Source: a virus. From it: a stretch of 30,148 nucleotides of DNA. The position numbers were made by a program, and so were the translations under genes. The notes under the pieces were generated by a model. It was not told where the DNA came from. It saw only the letters and a list, made by a program, of their open reading frames with translations, and made no database searches. The stretch covers positions 1-30,148 of the IMG/VR virus record IMGVR_UViG_3300032285_001395. One strand, written 5' to 3'. Shown here piece after piece: positions 7,178 through 23,431 of the stretch (position 1 is the stretch's first letter; every line of letters begins with the position of its first letter).

Positions 7178-7964
7178 TGGTAAACCTTATTTCGATATGA
7201 CTCCTTACCTAGATATGGTCGGGTTCGATAACTTACAGCCTGAGATATTATCAGGATTTGCTTTAGCTAGACATCATGCCAAGGAAGGTACATGGATGGC
7301 TCCAGGTTTTACATTTGATGATATGAGCTATAGAGTAAGTTGGAAACCTATATACGAAGCTATGCAAGAGTTTATGGCCTTGCCAGATACAGACCCTATC
7401 AAGCAAGCAGGTTTAAAATTAATGCCCAAGGATTTTAAAAACTTTCAAGAACGTAATATATTCACACGTTACTTAAAAATGGCAATAGGCGCATATGATC
7501 CATACATTTACTACTACTTGTGGGAAGAAGGTTCTTGGGATGATAGAACTGCTCCACGCAAACTAACACCTGAAGCAACCTTCTTTCCAGAAACTGTTAA
7601 ATGGGTTGAAAGTTTAGTAGGCACAGTATTTGAAGACATCGGTCGTGTTATATTCTTCCACTGTGAAGCAGACGGCATACCATTTGAACACAGAGACCTA
7701 GATGCTAAGAATGGCGTTAACATAGTCAAACCGCACCGCAATGAGTTTATACATATTCGTCCTAATACTAAGAAAGCATTTTATTTGTGGGATCCTGAAA
7801 CTAAAGATAAAACATACTTGAATACTCGTGCCGCATGGTGGAACGATGTAGACTGGCATGGTGGTGAGCGTATTATGGAACAAAGCTATGGCCTACGTAT
7901 AGATGGCAAGTTTACAGAAGAATTTCGTAAACAATTAGGAATTGATCATTTAGAGACATACTAA
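7164..7964 (+). CDS. 2OG-Fe(II) oxygenase-like protein
   Basis: The 266-residue protein has an alpha-helical N-terminal half of unknown role and a C-terminal double-stranded beta-helix signature: 'GIPFEHRDLDAKNG' provides HxD (H176, D178), 'EFIHIRPNTKKAFYLWDPET' and 'TYLNTRAAWW' form strands, 'VDWHGGE' gives the distal histidine (H232) and 'SYGLRIDG' the arginine (R245). All the residues needed for Fe(II) and 2OG binding seem to be present. The truncated protein at 1-228 is a paralogue of its last 75 residues. The start has a good AAGGA ribosome site inside the upstream radical-SAM gene, and its stop overlaps the next start as TAATG. It sits in an operon of two radical-SAM genes, two oxygenases and an SGNH hydrolase. 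Confidence 0.7.
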   Translation: MHGINGKPYFDMTPYLDMVGFDNLQPEILSGFALARHHAKEGTWMAPGFTFDDMSYRVSWKPIYEAMQEFMALPDTDPIKQAGLKLMPKDFKNFQERNIFTRYLKMAIGAYDPYIYYYLWEEGSWDDRTAPRKLTPEATFFPETVKWVESLVGTVFEDIGRVIFFHCEADGIPFEHRDLDAKNGVNIVKPHRNEFIHIRPNTKKAFYLWDPETKDKTYLNTRAAWWNDVDWHGGERIMEQSYGLRIDGKFTEEFRKQLGIDHLETY

Positions 7965-18726: not shown

Positions 18727-19804
18727 TTTGCTCTACCTTAATTTTTTGATCATCTATACTTATAAACGGACTATGAGGTCCACACATTATTATGCAGGTA
18801 CTACTGGATTTTTCATTCCATTTTTTCTGCCACATGGTTTGCCACTGCTCAGTTTCAACAATAGTTTTTAATCCTGTTTCTAATACATTCAATCTTGGAA
18901 ATCCTAACACCTGCTGACGAACTTTTTCGCCTTCTTCTATAACTGAATCTTCTTGAAATAGATTATATGATTTTAATAAATCAACATCATAATTTGTATG
19001 TAAAAACGCACCAATCATACAGCACGGACTTAGTTGATAGTGTGCATCAATAAACAGTTCTTTGTCTTTAATTGCTACACAATTAATCTTATCTGCATTG
19101 GGCCAATTTTGATGTCCTGTTAGATCCTGTTTACTTACAAACTTAACAGTACTGTCCGATGGTTGTTCAAGATTATATAAAACTTTTCCCTGACTGTTTA
19201 CAACTGGAAATGGGCGAGCATGTCGTCTGCTATTTTTCACAGTAAACTTTTTAAAGCCTGTTTGTTTGGCTACTAGTTCTGCGGCATCAACTTGATGTTC
19301 ATTATGCTTGAATCTAATAAACATCCATTCAGCAAGACCGCCCGCATCGATAAATGTTTTAGCGTTCTTTAAAATTAAATCATAGTTAGTACCAACACGA
19401 TATAAACTATGAGTATCTGCTAGACCGTCTAATGCAAATACTACGATATGACGACTAGGCAACGCATCATATAAATTTTTCCACCAGGTAGTAGACCTTA
19501 AGCTACCGTTAGTATGTATTTCAATTCTAACATTAGGCGCAGTAGTCTTAACATATTGGCACATATCAATAAGATCAGCGTTCATTAATGGATCACCGAA
19601 ATTGCCACAAAAATTAACAGTATCTAGTTGCTCTAATACGTCTATTGGAAATATTTTTATAAAATCAGCTAGTGTCCATTCATTGATGGATAGCAACGGA
19701 TTTTCTATGCCGCCATGTATATTACGAGGACACATAGGACACGACGCTTGGCATCGATTAGTAATTTCCACGTGAACACTTTTGAGTTCATCAAACCTAA
19801 ACAT
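18719..19804 (-). CDS. Radical SAM/SPASM-like protein, copy 1 of the pair flanking the methyltransferase
   Basis: The 361-residue protein opens with 'VHVEITNRCQASCPMCPRN', giving CX3CX2C at C18, C22 and C25. The usual GGEP motif is replaced by 'FCGNFGDPL', followed by 'IEIHTNGSLRSTTWW', 'FALDGLADTHSLYRVG' and 'FIRFKHNEHQV'. The C-terminal third has a reduced SPASM pattern: a single Cys ('INCVAIKDKE'), 'LSPCCMIG' and 'CIIMCGPHS', consistent with one auxiliary Fe-S cluster. The last 15 residues form a basic-acidic tail. It overlaps the methyltransferase gene upstream and the twitch gene downstream by 8 nt each, so the cluster is translated as a unit. Confidence 0.85.
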   Translation of the reverse strand: MFRFDELKSVHVEITNRCQASCPMCPRNIHGGIENPLLSINEWTLADFIKIFPIDVLEQLDTVNFCGNFGDPLMNADLIDMCQYVKTTAPNVRIEIHTNGSLRSTTWWKNLYDALPSRHIVVFALDGLADTHSLYRVGTNYDLILKNAKTFIDAGGLAEWMFIRFKHNEHQVDAAELVAKQTGFKKFTVKNSRRHARPFPVVNSQGKVLYNLEQPSDSTVKFVSKQDLTGHQNWPNADKINCVAIKDKELFIDAHYQLSPCCMIGAFLHTNYDVDLLKSYNLFQEDSVIEEGEKVRQQVLGFPRLNVLETGLKTIVETEQWQTMWQKKWNEKSSSTCIIMCGPHSPFISIDDQKIKVEQNG

Positions 19805-20402
19805 ATTTCTTTCCTATAACCATATAACGAGTATACAACGGCAATTCTAATTCACCTGCCCATGCTACATTAATGTTACATTGTTTTTTAAATTCTTCTA
19901 AACTATTTGCAATTCTAATATGTTCATCTATCTGGTAGTTGTTACTTTGTAATACCAATAGTTGATTATCCTGGCGTTTGCCTAACCATGTATTATATTG
20001 GTCTTGTGTTATATGTTCACAACTGGTATTAATAACAACATCAACGAAAGATATTAGATTACACATATCTCCAGTTATTGCCTGAAATCTTCCCTGTATC
20101 TCTTCGCCCTTATTCATCATAGTAGCAATAGGCTCGCATGTAGTATCAATATCGAGACTAGCAATACGTTTAATAGGAATACTACTTTGAAATAACATAC
20201 TAGCTAGTACGCCTACCCATCCGCCATGTATTTCGATACTAACAGGATCGTCCTTAACTGAGATTTGCATACCCAAAGCTTCAATCAACCATTCTTTACT
20301 TTTAAGTTGGCCAGACCAAAAGGCATCCATAGTTCGCATAGGATCTGGGCTTTGTCGGATAGCTTGCATCCAATGATGTAAATGTTCTGTATCAATTAAC
20401 AA
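19797..20402 (-). CDS. Class I SAM-dependent methyltransferase-like protein
   Basis: The start codon is TTG at 20402, supported by AGGAG six bases upstream; it overlaps the end of the preceding gene by 11 nt. The 201-residue protein shows Rossmann methyltransferase features: 'VSIEIHGGWVGVLASML' as the glycine-containing first loop, 'IKRIASLDIDTTCEPIA' with the acidic residue at the end of strand 2, 'GRFQAITGDMCNL' and 'FVDVVINTSCEHITQDQYNTW' as motif IV with the post-strand Ser-Cys-Glu-His. This combination resembles small-molecule and lipid or quinone-type methyltransferases. It lies between two paralogous radical-SAM genes, so methylation probably belongs to the same pathway. Confidence 0.75.
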   Translation of the reverse strand: MLIDTEHLHHWMQAIRQSPDPMRTMDAFWSGQLKSKEWLIEALGMQISVKDDPVSIEIHGGWVGVLASMLFQSSIPIKRIASLDIDTTCEPIATMMNKGEEIQGRFQAITGDMCNLISFVDVVINTSCEHITQDQYNTWLGKRQDNQLLVLQSNNYQIDEHIRIANSLEEFKKQCNINVAWAGELELPLYTRYMVIGKKYV

Positions 20403-21369
20403 ACTGTTCTCCTAACTTATCAAACTTGCCGCATTGCTTACTACATTCCACTAATGGCTTGGTCGCCCATGTATCTTCTATTTGTTTAAAATATCCAGCT
20501 TCGAATATTTCTGTTATTGTAGAATCATTGAGATTAGGAAACAGTCCTACAGCATCCATATAATCAATCCTATTATCTTGATTAGGCAATTGCCAAGAAA
20601 AGTCTAACCAACAACAGGGACTGATTGTACCATCTGCCGCGATATAAATTTGTTTATATTTTTGAGCCTTGCATTGTATTTCCGAAGGTACTGTTGATAA
20701 TACGTTTGAAGTTAATTTTTTACTAACTTCTGTAGGATATAAAATATTAATAGTTTTACCAGACTCATCTAGTACATTAAACTTGCCGTCTTTAAATCTA
20801 CTAGTGTGTTTAGTTGTAAACTTTTTAAATTTCATATCATCGCTTATCTTGCGACAATCTTCTATTTGATGTTCATTATGCTTGAACACTAACATATGCC
20901 ATTCGGCATTACCACCTGCTTGTATAAAGTTCCAAGCATTGGTTATAATTTTATGCCAATCTGTGCCTATTCTATAAAGGCGGTGTGTATCCTCTAATCC
21001 ATCGATACCAAATGTAACTTTAACATCGGTACGGGCTAGTGATTGCCACCATTGCTGGTCCCTAGCACTTCCATTTGTATGAAGGCTTAATTTTATAGTA
21101 GAGTTTGTTTCTCTCAAGTATTGAAATATTTCTAAACAGTCTCGTGCAATAATAGGATCACCCAGGTTACCACACATAAACAAACTATCTAGTTGTCGAA
21201 TAAAATCTGCTGGGAACCAATTCTTAAATGTTACTAAATCAATTTCAGTTATTTCAAATAAAGGATTTATTAGACCGCCGTTGATGCGCCGTGGGCACAT
21301 AGGACACCGTGCTTGGCATTTGCTGGTTAGTTCTAAATGAACATCTCTAATATCTTCTAATTTATACAT
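20392..21369 (-). CDS. Radical SAM/SPASM-like protein, copy 2 of the pair flanking the methyltransferase
   Basis: The 325-residue protein is paralogous to the 18719-19804 product throughout. It has 'VHLELTSKCQARCPMCPRR' with C18, C22 and C25, 'FMCGNLGDPI' at the GGEP position, 'LSLHTNGSARDQQWW', 'FGIDGLEDTHRLYRIG' and 'LVFKHNEHQI'. The C-terminal auxiliary site reads 'IQCKAQKYKQ', 'DGTISPCCWLD' and 'VECSKQCGKF'. It is about 35 residues shorter because it lacks the C-terminal tail of copy 1. Its start overlaps the upstream gene by 13 nt. Position two of the six-gene minus-strand operon. Confidence 0.85.
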   Translation of the reverse strand: MYKLEDIRDVHLELTSKCQARCPMCPRRINGGLINPLFEITEIDLVTFKNWFPADFIRQLDSLFMCGNLGDPIIARDCLEIFQYLRETNSTIKLSLHTNGSARDQQWWQSLARTDVKVTFGIDGLEDTHRLYRIGTDWHKIITNAWNFIQAGGNAEWHMLVFKHNEHQIEDCRKISDDMKFKKFTTKHTSRFKDGKFNVLDESGKTINILYPTEVSKKLTSNVLSTVPSEIQCKAQKYKQIYIAADGTISPCCWLDFSWQLPNQDNRIDYMDAVGLFPNLNDSTITEIFEAGYFKQIEDTWATKPLVECSKQCGKFDKLGEQFVN

Positions 21370-22316
21370 TTTGGTATCTTGCTGTCTGCACTACTAACAC
21401 ATCTAGCAGTTATACATTTTTTCGGTTCAGAAAATAAAGTAAAATCGTCTAGTGTACCTAACGGTGCTTCGTGACAGCTATAAGCACGTTTGACCTCATT
21501 ACCTCTTATTATAACACTCTGATATCCACTATTGCAAGTCCAATTGGTGAAACTATTAAATCCTAATGCATTAAACCGTTCAGCTTGATCGATGAAGTAA
21601 TCGTTCTCACCATCGGTAAGTCTAATCTGGAACCCTTCTTGCTGTTCAAAATCATCCTGCATGATCTTAACCATTTCAGGAGAGTAGCCATCTACAATAG
21701 CAGTAGCCGTATCATTACTTTGTGGTTTAAGGGTAACATTGATTCCACGGCTACGTAATCTATTACAGCGTTCTAAGGTTTCAAAAAAATGTTCTGGTAC
21801 CATTACTTGGTTAACAGTTACATGTACACGTTCATACATTAACTGTAGGCACTTATCTCCAAACTCTTGCTCTCGAGCGAACTCTGCGTGAAAGCTGGCT
21901 GTGATACTACGACGTTGTAGTAATTCGGTATTGGTACACCAATTCTTCCACCATTTGCTACCTGGACTTAAATTAGTAGTCATGTGTATACTTTGGTAAC
22001 TACTTTCAAGTTCGTCCAGATGTTTTACTAACTCTGGTAACTGTTTATATGCTGTAGGCTCACCACCCGAGAAGCTCCAGTGAAATTGAGTAAATCCATT
22101 TGCACGAGCTTGACGTTTTATCTCATCTATGGTATTCTTATATACATCTAAGGTTTGATAGTCCATCTTATCACTGCGAGCATAGGGCCAGCAGTAACTA
22201 CATTTATAATTACAAAATCTTCCTAAGATCCAACTAACGTTAAATAATGGACGGTCCAACATAGTTTGCTGTCCAAAGTGTGTAATCTTTTCGAATGGTA
22301 TGGTTGAAAATTGCAT
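21357..22316 (-). CDS. Small radical SAM protein with C-terminal cysteine cluster, copy 3
   Basis: The 319-residue protein is the promoter-proximal gene of the minus-strand operon. It contains 'LGRFCNYKCSYCWPYARS' with C35, C39 and C42, 'WSFSGGEPTAYKQL', 'MTTNLSPGSKWWKNW' and a C-terminal auxiliary motif starting 'NWTCNSGYQSVIIRGNE', followed by a lone Cys and 'CITARCVSSADSKIPK'. It groups with the genes at 15413 and 16280. The ATG at 22316 directly abuts the TTGACA box of the divergent promoter for the tRNA-like RNA, so expression in the two directions is likely to interfere. No good ribosome-binding site precedes the ATG. Confidence 0.85.
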   Translation of the reverse strand: MQFSTIPFEKITHFGQQTMLDRPLFNVSWILGRFCNYKCSYCWPYARSDKMDYQTLDVYKNTIDEIKRQARANGFTQFHWSFSGGEPTAYKQLPELVKHLDELESSYQSIHMTTNLSPGSKWWKNWCTNTELLQRRSITASFHAEFAREQEFGDKCLQLMYERVHVTVNQVMVPEHFFETLERCNRLRSRGINVTLKPQSNDTATAIVDGYSPEMVKIMQDDFEQQEGFQIRLTDGENDYFIDQAERFNALGFNSFTNWTCNSGYQSVIIRGNEVKRAYSCHEAPLGTLDDFTLFSEPKKCITARCVSSADSKIPKCIN

Positions 22317-22344
22317 TGACAGTATTTAAGTGCGAATGTATAAT
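22316..22344 (+). promoter_or_regulatory. Perfect sigma70 promoter, TTGACA-17-TATAAT
   Basis: TTGACA at 22316-22321 and TATAAT at 22339-22344 are both exact consensus with an optimal 17-bp spacer. The expected start site, six or seven bases after the -10 box, is G22350 or G22351, which is the 5' end of the tRNA-like RNA. The downstream coding genes from 22490 follow without an obvious terminator and may be read from the same promoter. The -35 box touches the start codon of the divergent radical-SAM gene. Confidence 0.85.
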
Positions 22345-22350
22345 TAGCTG

Positions 22351-22468
22351 GTAGACGTGAGTGGAACATGGTATACCTCCTCCTAGTAAGCTGACCCCCA
22401 GCTGAACGGAGGGAATTGGGCTAGCCCATTGGGCGCCTTTGCAGGTTCGAATCCTGCCGTCTACACCA
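22351..22468 (+). tRNA. tRNA-like RNA with intact acceptor stem, T arm and CCA but atypical middle
   Basis: Seven perfect pairs join 22351-22357 (GTAGACG) to 22458-22464 (CGTCTAC), followed by discriminator A and encoded CCA (22466-22468). The T arm is canonical: GCAGG, loop TTCGAAT, CCTGC (22441-22457). A D-arm-like segment with GGAAC-ATGG-TA occupies 22361-22376. The remainder is 118 nt in total rather than 75-95. CCTCC at 22379-22383 pairs with GGAGG at 22408-22412, but encloses 24 nt including a hairpin (AGCTG/CAGCT, 22389-22403), and a second hairpin TGGG/CCCA (22417-22428) lies before the T arm. One reading is an anticodon loop CTAGTAA (22383-22389) with an inserted hairpin, which would give anticodon AGT; this is tentative. 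Alternatives are a non-decoding tRNA mimic or a decayed class II tRNA. Confidence 0.65.
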
Positions 22469-22489: not shown

Positions 22490-23029
22490 ATGAAAAAAGT
22501 AGCATCGAGTCCAGAACGCAATACCTTCCAAGTAGAAGGAGTAATCAGGCGGGCGGAAGAAGCAGGCGAAGAGCCCGATCAAGCATATATCGAAATGTGG
22601 GAACAGATTAAGATCGATGATGCTAACAAGATTAATGATCCCGAGTGGCAAAAGAACAACATGGAGTATGACCTGCGTAGTTCAAAGGAACTATGCGATA
22701 AGGCAAAGGCCAGTGATACGTATGCTCAAAACTTGTATGCGGCCATGTGCAATATGACTTGGCAAAGCAGAGAATTTTGGCAAGAACTAAAAGGTGAAGT
22801 TTGGTCGTGCAGTTGGCGCCATAGTGGTGGTATTGTTGCCGACATGCGTGAACAAGGCGACTACATTGATTGGTACTGTAGTGGTATTGGTAATGACGAT
22901 GCTGGCTATGGACTAGATGCCCGACCAGCGACAGGTTATGTGCCAGAGGGTACCGTGACTGAAGAAATTGAATTAGACTTAAATCGGCTAGGTTGGAGGC
23001 CGGTTCCTTGGGCAGATAACGATGAGTAA
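22490..23029 (+). CDS. Conserved hypothetical protein, phage-type
   Basis: I do not recognise a domain in this 179-residue acidic protein. The first 60 residues are helical and charged ('VIRRAEEAGEEPDQAYIEMW'). The middle ('YAQNLYAAMCNMTWQSREFW') and a segment rich in Trp and Gly ('EVWSCSWRHSGGIVADM', 'GDYIDWYCSGIGND') look like a compact fold, and the ending 'YVPEGTVTEEIELDLNRLGW' resembles small conserved proteins I recall from large marine phages. It starts 21 bases after the tRNA-like RNA with no clear Shine-Dalgarno sequence and ends 8 nt inside the next frame. Confidence 0.75.
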   Translation: MKKVASSPERNTFQVEGVIRRAEEAGEEPDQAYIEMWEQIKIDDANKINDPEWQKNNMEYDLRSSKELCDKAKASDTYAQNLYAAMCNMTWQSREFWQELKGEVWSCSWRHSGGIVADMREQGDYIDWYCSGIGNDDAGYGLDARPATGYVPEGTVTEEIELDLNRLGWRPVPWADNDE

Positions 23030-23213
23030 AGTAAATAATTATATGGAAAAATTAACATTTAACATAGACGACATTTTTGAAGACATTCCTGGTGATCCAG
23101 ATAATGTCATTATGAAAATCCCTCCAGAAATTATCAAACACACTGGATGGAGAGAAGGTGATACACTTAACGTTGAAGTTGAGGACGGTGCTATTGTTAT
23201 TAAAAAACTATGA
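23022..23213 (+). CDS. AbrB/SpoVT/MazE-like small DNA-binding protein
   Basis: The 63-residue product ends with 'VIMKIPPEIIKHTGWREGD' and 'TLNVEVEDGAIVIKKL', the swapped-hairpin beta pattern '(i)P..i...hGw..GD.l.v...dg.i.i.k' of AbrB/MazE-type transcription factors and antitoxins. The N-terminal 'FNIDDIFEDIPGDPDN' is acidic. The start at 23022 overlaps the upstream stop by 8 nt (ATGAGTAA); the ATG at 23043 (MEKLTF) is an alternative. No toxin gene is apparent next to it. In phages such proteins are often stand-alone and of unknown role. Confidence 0.65.
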   Translation: MSKVNNYMEKLTFNIDDIFEDIPGDPDNVIMKIPPEIIKHTGWREGDTLNVEVEDGAIVIKKL

Positions 23214-23431
23214 GTAATAAAGATAATATACTAGAACTAACAGGTATAGTTGATGAAGTATTACCAGCTAACATGTTTAGAGTTAAAGTAGAAAACATGC
23301 CAAACTTACTGTTATGTTACATGGGTGGCAAGTTAAAGCAACACAAGATTAGAATCATTCAAGGGGACTCGGTTAAAATTGAAGTCAGTGCTTATGACCT
23401 AAGTAAGGGCAGAATAACCTATAGATTATGA
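23210..23431 (+). CDS. infA: Translation initiation factor IF-1
   Basis: The 73-residue product has the same length as bacterial IF-1 and aligns along its whole length: 'DNILELTGIVDEVLPANMF' matches the E. coli start ('DNIEMQGTVLETLPNTMF'), followed by 'RVKVEN', 'GGKLKQHKIRIIQGDSV' and the diagnostic 'YDLSKGRITYR'. IF-1 binds the 30S A site and assists initiation together with IF-2 and IF-3. Here it sits between a small AbrB-like gene and a metallopeptidase-like gene, overlapping each by 4 nt (ATGA), which is not its usual chromosomal setting. A phage-borne copy that modifies host initiation is the simplest reading. Confidence 0.9.
   Translation: MSNKDNILELTGIVDEVLPANMFRVKVENMPNLLLCYMGGKLKQHKIRIIQGDSVKIEVSAYDLSKGRITYRL

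Follow-up and report, generated by a model that had tools for sequence, protein, structure and literature searches.

The locus described here lies in a 30,148-base IMG/VR virus record, the whole of which is referred to as the window. Positions 22351-22468 on the plus strand encode a tRNA-like RNA (TLR) of 118 nt, including an encoded CCA. The principal features of the locus are as follows:

21357-22316, minus strand: radical SAM gene, divergent from the TLR, sharing its intergenic region and starting a variable radical SAM cassette
22316-22321, plus strand: -35 element TTGACA, found with no more than one mismatch in 117 of 118 distinct upstream regions
22339-22344, plus strand: -10 element TATAAT, preceded by a 17-nt spacer and followed by 6 nt to G1
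22351-22357, plus strand: acceptor 5' strand GTAGACG, pairing at 7 of 7 positions with CGTCTAC (22458-22464)
22358-22377, plus strand: D region TGAGTGGAACATGGTATACC, containing U8, A14, A15, G18, G19, U20 and A20a, with a tRNALeu-type D loop
22378-22413, plus strand: arm in the place of the anticodon arm, without an anticodon, made up of a TCCTCC/GGAGGG stem, a TAGTA/GAAC bulged-G module and an apical hairpin (22389-22403)
22418-22438, plus strand: variable arm, with the strongest covariation of the TLR
22441-22457, plus strand: T arm GCAGG-TTCGAAT-CCTGC, 5 bp, with U48 at 22440
22458-22468, plus strand: acceptor 3' strand, A73 (22465) and encoded CCA (22466-22468)
22490-23029, plus strand: conserved 179-aa protein with no family in Pfam, PHROGs or NCBIfam
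23210-23431, plus strand: translation initiation factor IF-1 (infA; TIGR00008, 87 bits versus a cut-off of 61)

The promoter is of the strong consensus sigma-70 type, and its -35 element shares sequence with the start codon of the radical SAM gene on the other strand. Across the 118 distinct upstream regions of the family, the -10 element, too, departs from TATAAT by no more than one base in 117, and 116 have a 17-nt spacer. The gap between the -10 element and G1 measures 6 nt in 113 regions and 7 nt in a further three. Judged by the usual distance from a promoter, transcription is predicted to start at acceptor base G1 (22351). The initial annotation had described a perfect promoter that starts the RNA at its mature 5' end, and the TTGACA-17-TATAAT-6 nt-G1 geometry behind this description is indeed kept in the family. 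The near-constant distance suggests that a start at G1 is under selection. With transcription set to begin at acceptor base 1, the RNA would carry no 5' leader requiring RNase P.

Upstream, the window holds a cassette (229-22316) of about ten radical SAM genes, two of them with an HMPTM zinc ribbon and one of the B12-binding type, together with 2OG-Fe(II) and TauD oxygenases and GDSL-like and aminotransferase-like genes. The content of the cassette varies among relatives at the same site. An obligate link between the TLR and radical SAM genes was rejected, as the two are adjacent in most loci and other genes take this position in the L035, L062 and L072 clades. A methyltransferase-like protein (assigned by eye; window 19797-20402) is found in 104 loci on either side of the TLR and is thus mobile but retained.

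Downstream, the usual gene order is a small secreted-type protein, the 179-aa protein, an AbrB-like protein (assigned by eye) and IF-1. The first gene after the TLR encodes the secreted protein in 112 cases, the 179-aa protein in 23 and other proteins in nine. The small protein (L005:141-444, relative to the TLR; homologues in 113 loci) has a signal-peptide-like N terminus and an HExxHC motif and appears protease-like; it usually comes first after the TLR and is lost in the window. The predicted structure of the 179-aa protein has low confidence (pLDDT 57).

This arrangement raises the possibility that the TLR forms the 5' end of the downstream operon mRNA, encoding the secreted protein, the 179-aa protein and IF-1, where it would control how this mRNA is processed, translated or kept stable, much as a tRNA may head a translation-factor operon. 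In nearly all loci, roughly 20-35 nt separate the CCA from the next start codon. No obvious terminator is seen, and IF-1 is found near the TLR in 109 loci, about 1 kb downstream in the same plus-strand gene run. However, the downstream gene differs by clade while the TLR stays constant, the strict A73-CCA end and the leucyl-tRNA synthetase (LeuRS) determinants described below have no evident use in a leader, and the SD-like GGAGG is missing from short TLR forms. We regard such a leader acting in cis as improbable. The retention of the TLR while its neighbours change favours action in trans.

The family was collected by several routes. An exact 28-base pattern spanning the T arm and acceptor retrieved 29 IMG/VR loci, each of which has an RNA and a promoter of this type, and a D-region pattern and a looser pattern added many more. 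Furthermore, the 179-aa protein was used as a probe and returned 228 relatives. All 76 loci newly fetched in this way (L125-L200) contain a TLR. The strict pattern detects it in 57 of them, and in the other 19 it was recognised by a test of the acceptor and T arm that is independent of the pattern. In all, we collected 121 distinct TLR sequences, which range from 94 to 121 nt in length and occupy 159 distinct contexts. The carriers are very large freshwater phages with contigs of up to 356 kb. Full-size records (265-356 kb) hold a single TLR, located apart from the array of ordinary tRNAs, which comprises 24-37 members according to ARAGORN in ten records. A T4-type Gp23 capsid protein is found in three of the four largest records and ribosomal protein S21 in three. 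Outside these phages, the exact D-region pattern gave three matches in 84,980 bacterial genomes, all by chance, in coding sequence and without the fold, and BLAST searches of cultured phages returned T-arm fragments only and no TLR. We found no published description of this RNA in literature consisting mostly of papers available without subscription, where absence is not proof.

The TLR combines features of an ordinary tRNA, namely a 7-bp acceptor, a 5-bp T arm with a TTCRANY-type loop and CCA, with a body that standard models do not accept. The acceptor, the T arm with its TTCGAAT loop, the CCA and the 118-nt length had been read from the sequence at the outset, and their coordinates were confirmed. 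A73 is present in all 121 distinct sequences, and the 3' end is CCA in 118 and CCG in three (L044, L261 and L276). Nevertheless, the Rfam tRNA model RF00005 scores the TLR at 25.1 bits, under its cut-off of 29, and ARAGORN calls no tRNA or tmRNA anywhere in the window, nor any in loci L001-L029. When flanks were supplied, ARAGORN called 29 of the 121, with conflicting isotypes (Pro, Arg, Ser or undefined). The score below the cut-off and the missing ARAGORN call indicate that the TLR is not a normal tRNA, and a normal isotype was ruled out since no isotype model fits. A tmRNA was ruled out as well, given that there is no tmRNA call and no tag frame; the 3:70 pair is A-U in 30 of 39 homologues, G-C in five and G.U in four, rather than the G3.U70 of tmRNA. 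An allo-tRNA was ruled out by the 7/5 acceptor domain and A73 of all TLRs, as opposed to an 8/4 or 9/3 domain and G73.

The folding energy of the window TLR alone (z = -1.3 versus shuffles) is no better than that of many shuffled sequences, so that comparative evidence is needed. We therefore aligned 39 homologues, in which the anticodon arm was trimmed to its base to match lengths. The cloverleaf is paired in 99.6% of cells in this trimmed set, compared with 89.5% in shuffles and 40-51% in slid-alignment controls. Compensatory changes are found at 15 of 26 pairs, in the acceptor, T, anticodon and variable arms, and the observed values were reached by none of 500 shuffles. On this comparison of sequences, the fold is real, proven by covariation, and pairing is conserved in the extra stems as well. 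A family model built from the RNA (R1) scores the window TLR at 105 bits (E 8.7e-30), although the window's trimmed sequence is part of its training set. Across full phage records, R1 gives 71-114 bits for TLRs and at most 41 bits for ordinary tRNAs. The closest cultured phages by capsid, PA5oct, Vibrio phage 2.275.O and Phosso, reach at most 36 bits, within the range of ordinary tRNAs.

Taken together, the compensatory changes in four arms, the maintained promoter-to-G1 distance and the presence in 76 of 76 loci argue for selection on the RNA product. A chance origin was rejected on the grounds of the covariation and of this presence. The initial annotation had also considered a decayed class II tRNA. 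The TLR sits where the variable radical SAM cassette meets conserved genes, which would suit a remnant of this kind or an att-like recombination landmark; in either case the RNA itself would be without a function. Both readings are contradicted by the compensatory changes, through which pairing persists in each of the four arms, and we give them hardly any credence. The proposal of a tRNA mimic, on the other hand, is borne out as a conserved, non-decoding tRNA fold with 121 distinct homologues.

The variable arm consists of two 4-bp stems and a 3-nt loop. More specifically, the outer stem pairs GGGC (22418-22421) with GCCT (22435-22438), the inner stem pairs GCCC (22424-22427) with GGGC (22431-22434) around the loop ATT, and a 2-nt bulge, TA (22422-22423), separates them on the 5' side. 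The variable-arm pair 48-64 alternates between U-A, C-G, G-C and A-U across the family. A hairpin proposed earlier at 22417-22428 (TGGGC-TA-GCCCA) would need a 2-nt loop and was discarded. The GCCC/GGGC pairing that had been offered as its mutually exclusive alternative is the true inner stem of the variable arm, whereas the suggestion of two possible conformations did not hold, as covariation backs one structure.

The arm in the place of the anticodon arm is 14 nt or 18-39 nt long in the family, compared with 17 nt in normal tRNAs. A 5-bp stem with a 7-nt loop can be drawn from U27 in none of the 121 sequences, in line with the non-canonical anticodon region noted at first. One register off, such a stem-loop can be drawn in 18 of the 121, all of which are 7-bp helices capped by cUUCGg and lacking U33. 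With the anticodon loop missing, a Leu anticodon is absent. Instead, the helices end in UUCG, CUUG or GNRA-type loops. A UAGUA/GAAC module, which we take to resemble the bulged-G motif of the 23S sarcin-ricin loop, is found in 52 of the 121 TLRs, the window's among them, with another hairpin on top. In the window this apical hairpin, AGCTGACCCCCAGCT (22389-22403), is real, as had been claimed. The description of a tRNA with an inserted hairpin is correct as anatomy, since every member has longer or capped helices. Apical sequences like UGUAACAAAC recur on the long anticodon-arm helices of L037, L062, L150, L217 and L243 and possibly represent a specific loop or receptor motif. A Shine-Dalgarno or anti-Shine-Dalgarno role of ACCUCC/GGAGG was rejected because short TLR forms lack it. 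The sequences of this arm and of the variable arm turn over fast while their shape is kept.

A73, U8, A14-A15, G18G19, A20a and U48, the bacterial Leu determinants with the D-loop form AA-N-GGUA, are found in 121 of 121 TLRs; the D-region search pattern itself fixed several of the D-loop bases, a bias that does not affect the 76 loci retrieved through the neighbouring protein. In a comparison with 290 ordinary tRNAs from these phages, the set was complete in 26 of 28 Leu, two of seven Tyr and none of 20 Ser tRNAs, and for four class I isotypes in a minority of the tRNAs. One D-region pair varies jointly (G.U in 85, U-A in 15, C-G in 2 and G.G in 19 of the 121). As it is the only D-region pair to covary, and is G.G in 19 sequences, the register of the D stem is not fixed by covariation, and the stem as drawn must tolerate A10.C25 or an extra base. 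The closest D regions to that of the TLR are those of phage tRNALeu(UAA/UAG). An ordinary phage tRNALeu(UAA) on contig L219 (minus strand, 7635-7720), apparently from a different phage, has the same D arm as some TLRs, with 19 identical bases (TGAGTGGAATTGGTAGACC), and a tRNALeu(UAA) of this type is a possible ancestor of the TLR. The same contig also has several tRNAs with odd anticodon calls.

According to a review, A73, A15-U48, G18G19 and A20a are essential for E. coli LeuRS, as is A14 in related systems, and a tRNA stripped of its anticodon arm and variable arm can still be leucylated (PMC9976931). These findings suggest, with somewhat more support than doubt, that the TLR is a leucyl-tRNA or LeuRS-type tRNALeu mimic that is non-decoding, stand-alone and acting in trans. 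In such a scheme, host RNA polymerase would make the TLR, presumably early in infection. The RNA would keep the elbow, the acceptor end and the CCA of a class II tRNA, with a capped helix taking the place of the anticodon loop. Host LeuRS, which does not read the anticodon, would bind the TLR and probably leucylate it. Lacking an anticodon, the TLR could not be used by the ribosome, is predicted to be missing from polysomes and would therefore act in trans outside translation, either as a dedicated leucyl-tRNA or as tRNA-shaped bait for tRNA-binding enzymes. Counting against the leucyl reading are the ambiguous register of the D stem and a variable arm that exceeds those of known bacterial tRNALeu in length. 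Furthermore, neither a phage LeuRS nor a Leu/Phe-transferase was found in the full-size phage records, which thus offer no dedicated user of the charge.

The leucyl reading can be extended to a ribosome-excluded aminoacyl-tRNA channel in freshwater jumbo phages, a proposal for which we see the case as evenly poised. Here, an anticodon-less tRNALeu would be charged by the host and then used by some host or phage enzyme, or sacrificed to tRNA-attacking immunity.

Alternatively, the TLR may be a pure anti-defence decoy, a bait for effectors that attack the acceptor end, elbow or variable arm of tRNAs, in which case charging would be irrelevant. Candidate attackers include toxSAS and CapRel-type enzymes, tail-cutting Cas12a3, Septu or retron PtuAB, and Schlafen-like nucleases. 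A TLR without an anticodon could be damaged without jamming ribosomes and would be immune to anticodon nucleases. Septu and retron-Eco7 cleave the variable loop of class II tRNATyr, which we count in favour of a decoy, and phage tRNA has been discussed as decoy or supplement (PMC13096335). The near-complete tRNA sets of these phages, a usual sign of tRNA warfare, point the same way, as do the strong consensus promoter and the fast turnover of the variable and anticodon arms. In contrast, A73, A15-U48 and the Leu D loop are far stricter than a generic bait requires, a nuclease bait would be expected to conserve the cleavage sequence rather than the tRNALeu core, and no defence system is known to pair with the TLR. 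A decoy that works irrespective of charging thus seems rather unlikely to us.

The normal explanation for phage tRNAs is codon usage or the replacement of cleaved host tRNAs. Neither purpose fits the TLR, which every related phage examined retains although it cannot decode, and this points to a use of tRNA outside translation. It may have gone unnoticed because tRNA-finding programs either overlook it or assign it to Pro, Arg or Ser. The TLR offers a natural test of the tRNA parts that matter to synthetases, EF-Tu and tRNA-targeting immunity and, if the aminoacyl-tRNA channel exists, would represent a new class of phage effector RNA.

Among known RNAs, bacterial class II tRNALeu has in common with the TLR the 7-bp acceptor, the D and T loops, A73, A14-A15, U48, G18G19, A20a, a long variable arm and CCA. 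In contrast, the TLR has no anticodon loop, a variable arm of 8-9 bp interrupted by a 2-nt bulge, and its own promoter starting at base 1. The 3' tRNA-like structures of plant viruses and tmRNA are likewise tRNA-shaped, CCA-ended and recognisable by tRNA enzymes without decoding. However, these are genomic RNA ends or a tagging RNA, whereas the TLR is a free RNA of 94-121 nt with no tag frame. The sarcin-ricin bulged-G module of 23S rRNA, a known stable motif, has the same UAGUA/GAAC strands as the 52 TLRs described above, where its sole use is to lengthen a helix that carries other loops at its end, and many members lack it. The Bacillus cereus pseudo-tRNA tRNAOther, like the TLR, is a tRNA-like RNA outside translation and is poorly aminoacylated in vitro, but it is bacterial, keeps a Trp anticodon and is part of a larger regulatory RNA (PMC3399842), while the TLR is phage-borne, class II and without an anticodon. 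Allo-tRNAs are also odd metagenomic tRNAs whose identity is set outside the anticodon, with 8/4 or 9/3 acceptor domains and SerRS elements (PMC7609411), in contrast to the 7/5 domain, A73 and Leu elements of the TLR. None of the nearest known kinds, be it tRNALeu, tRNAOther, the plant-virus structures, tmRNA or allo-tRNAs, is at once phage-borne, class II and without an anticodon.
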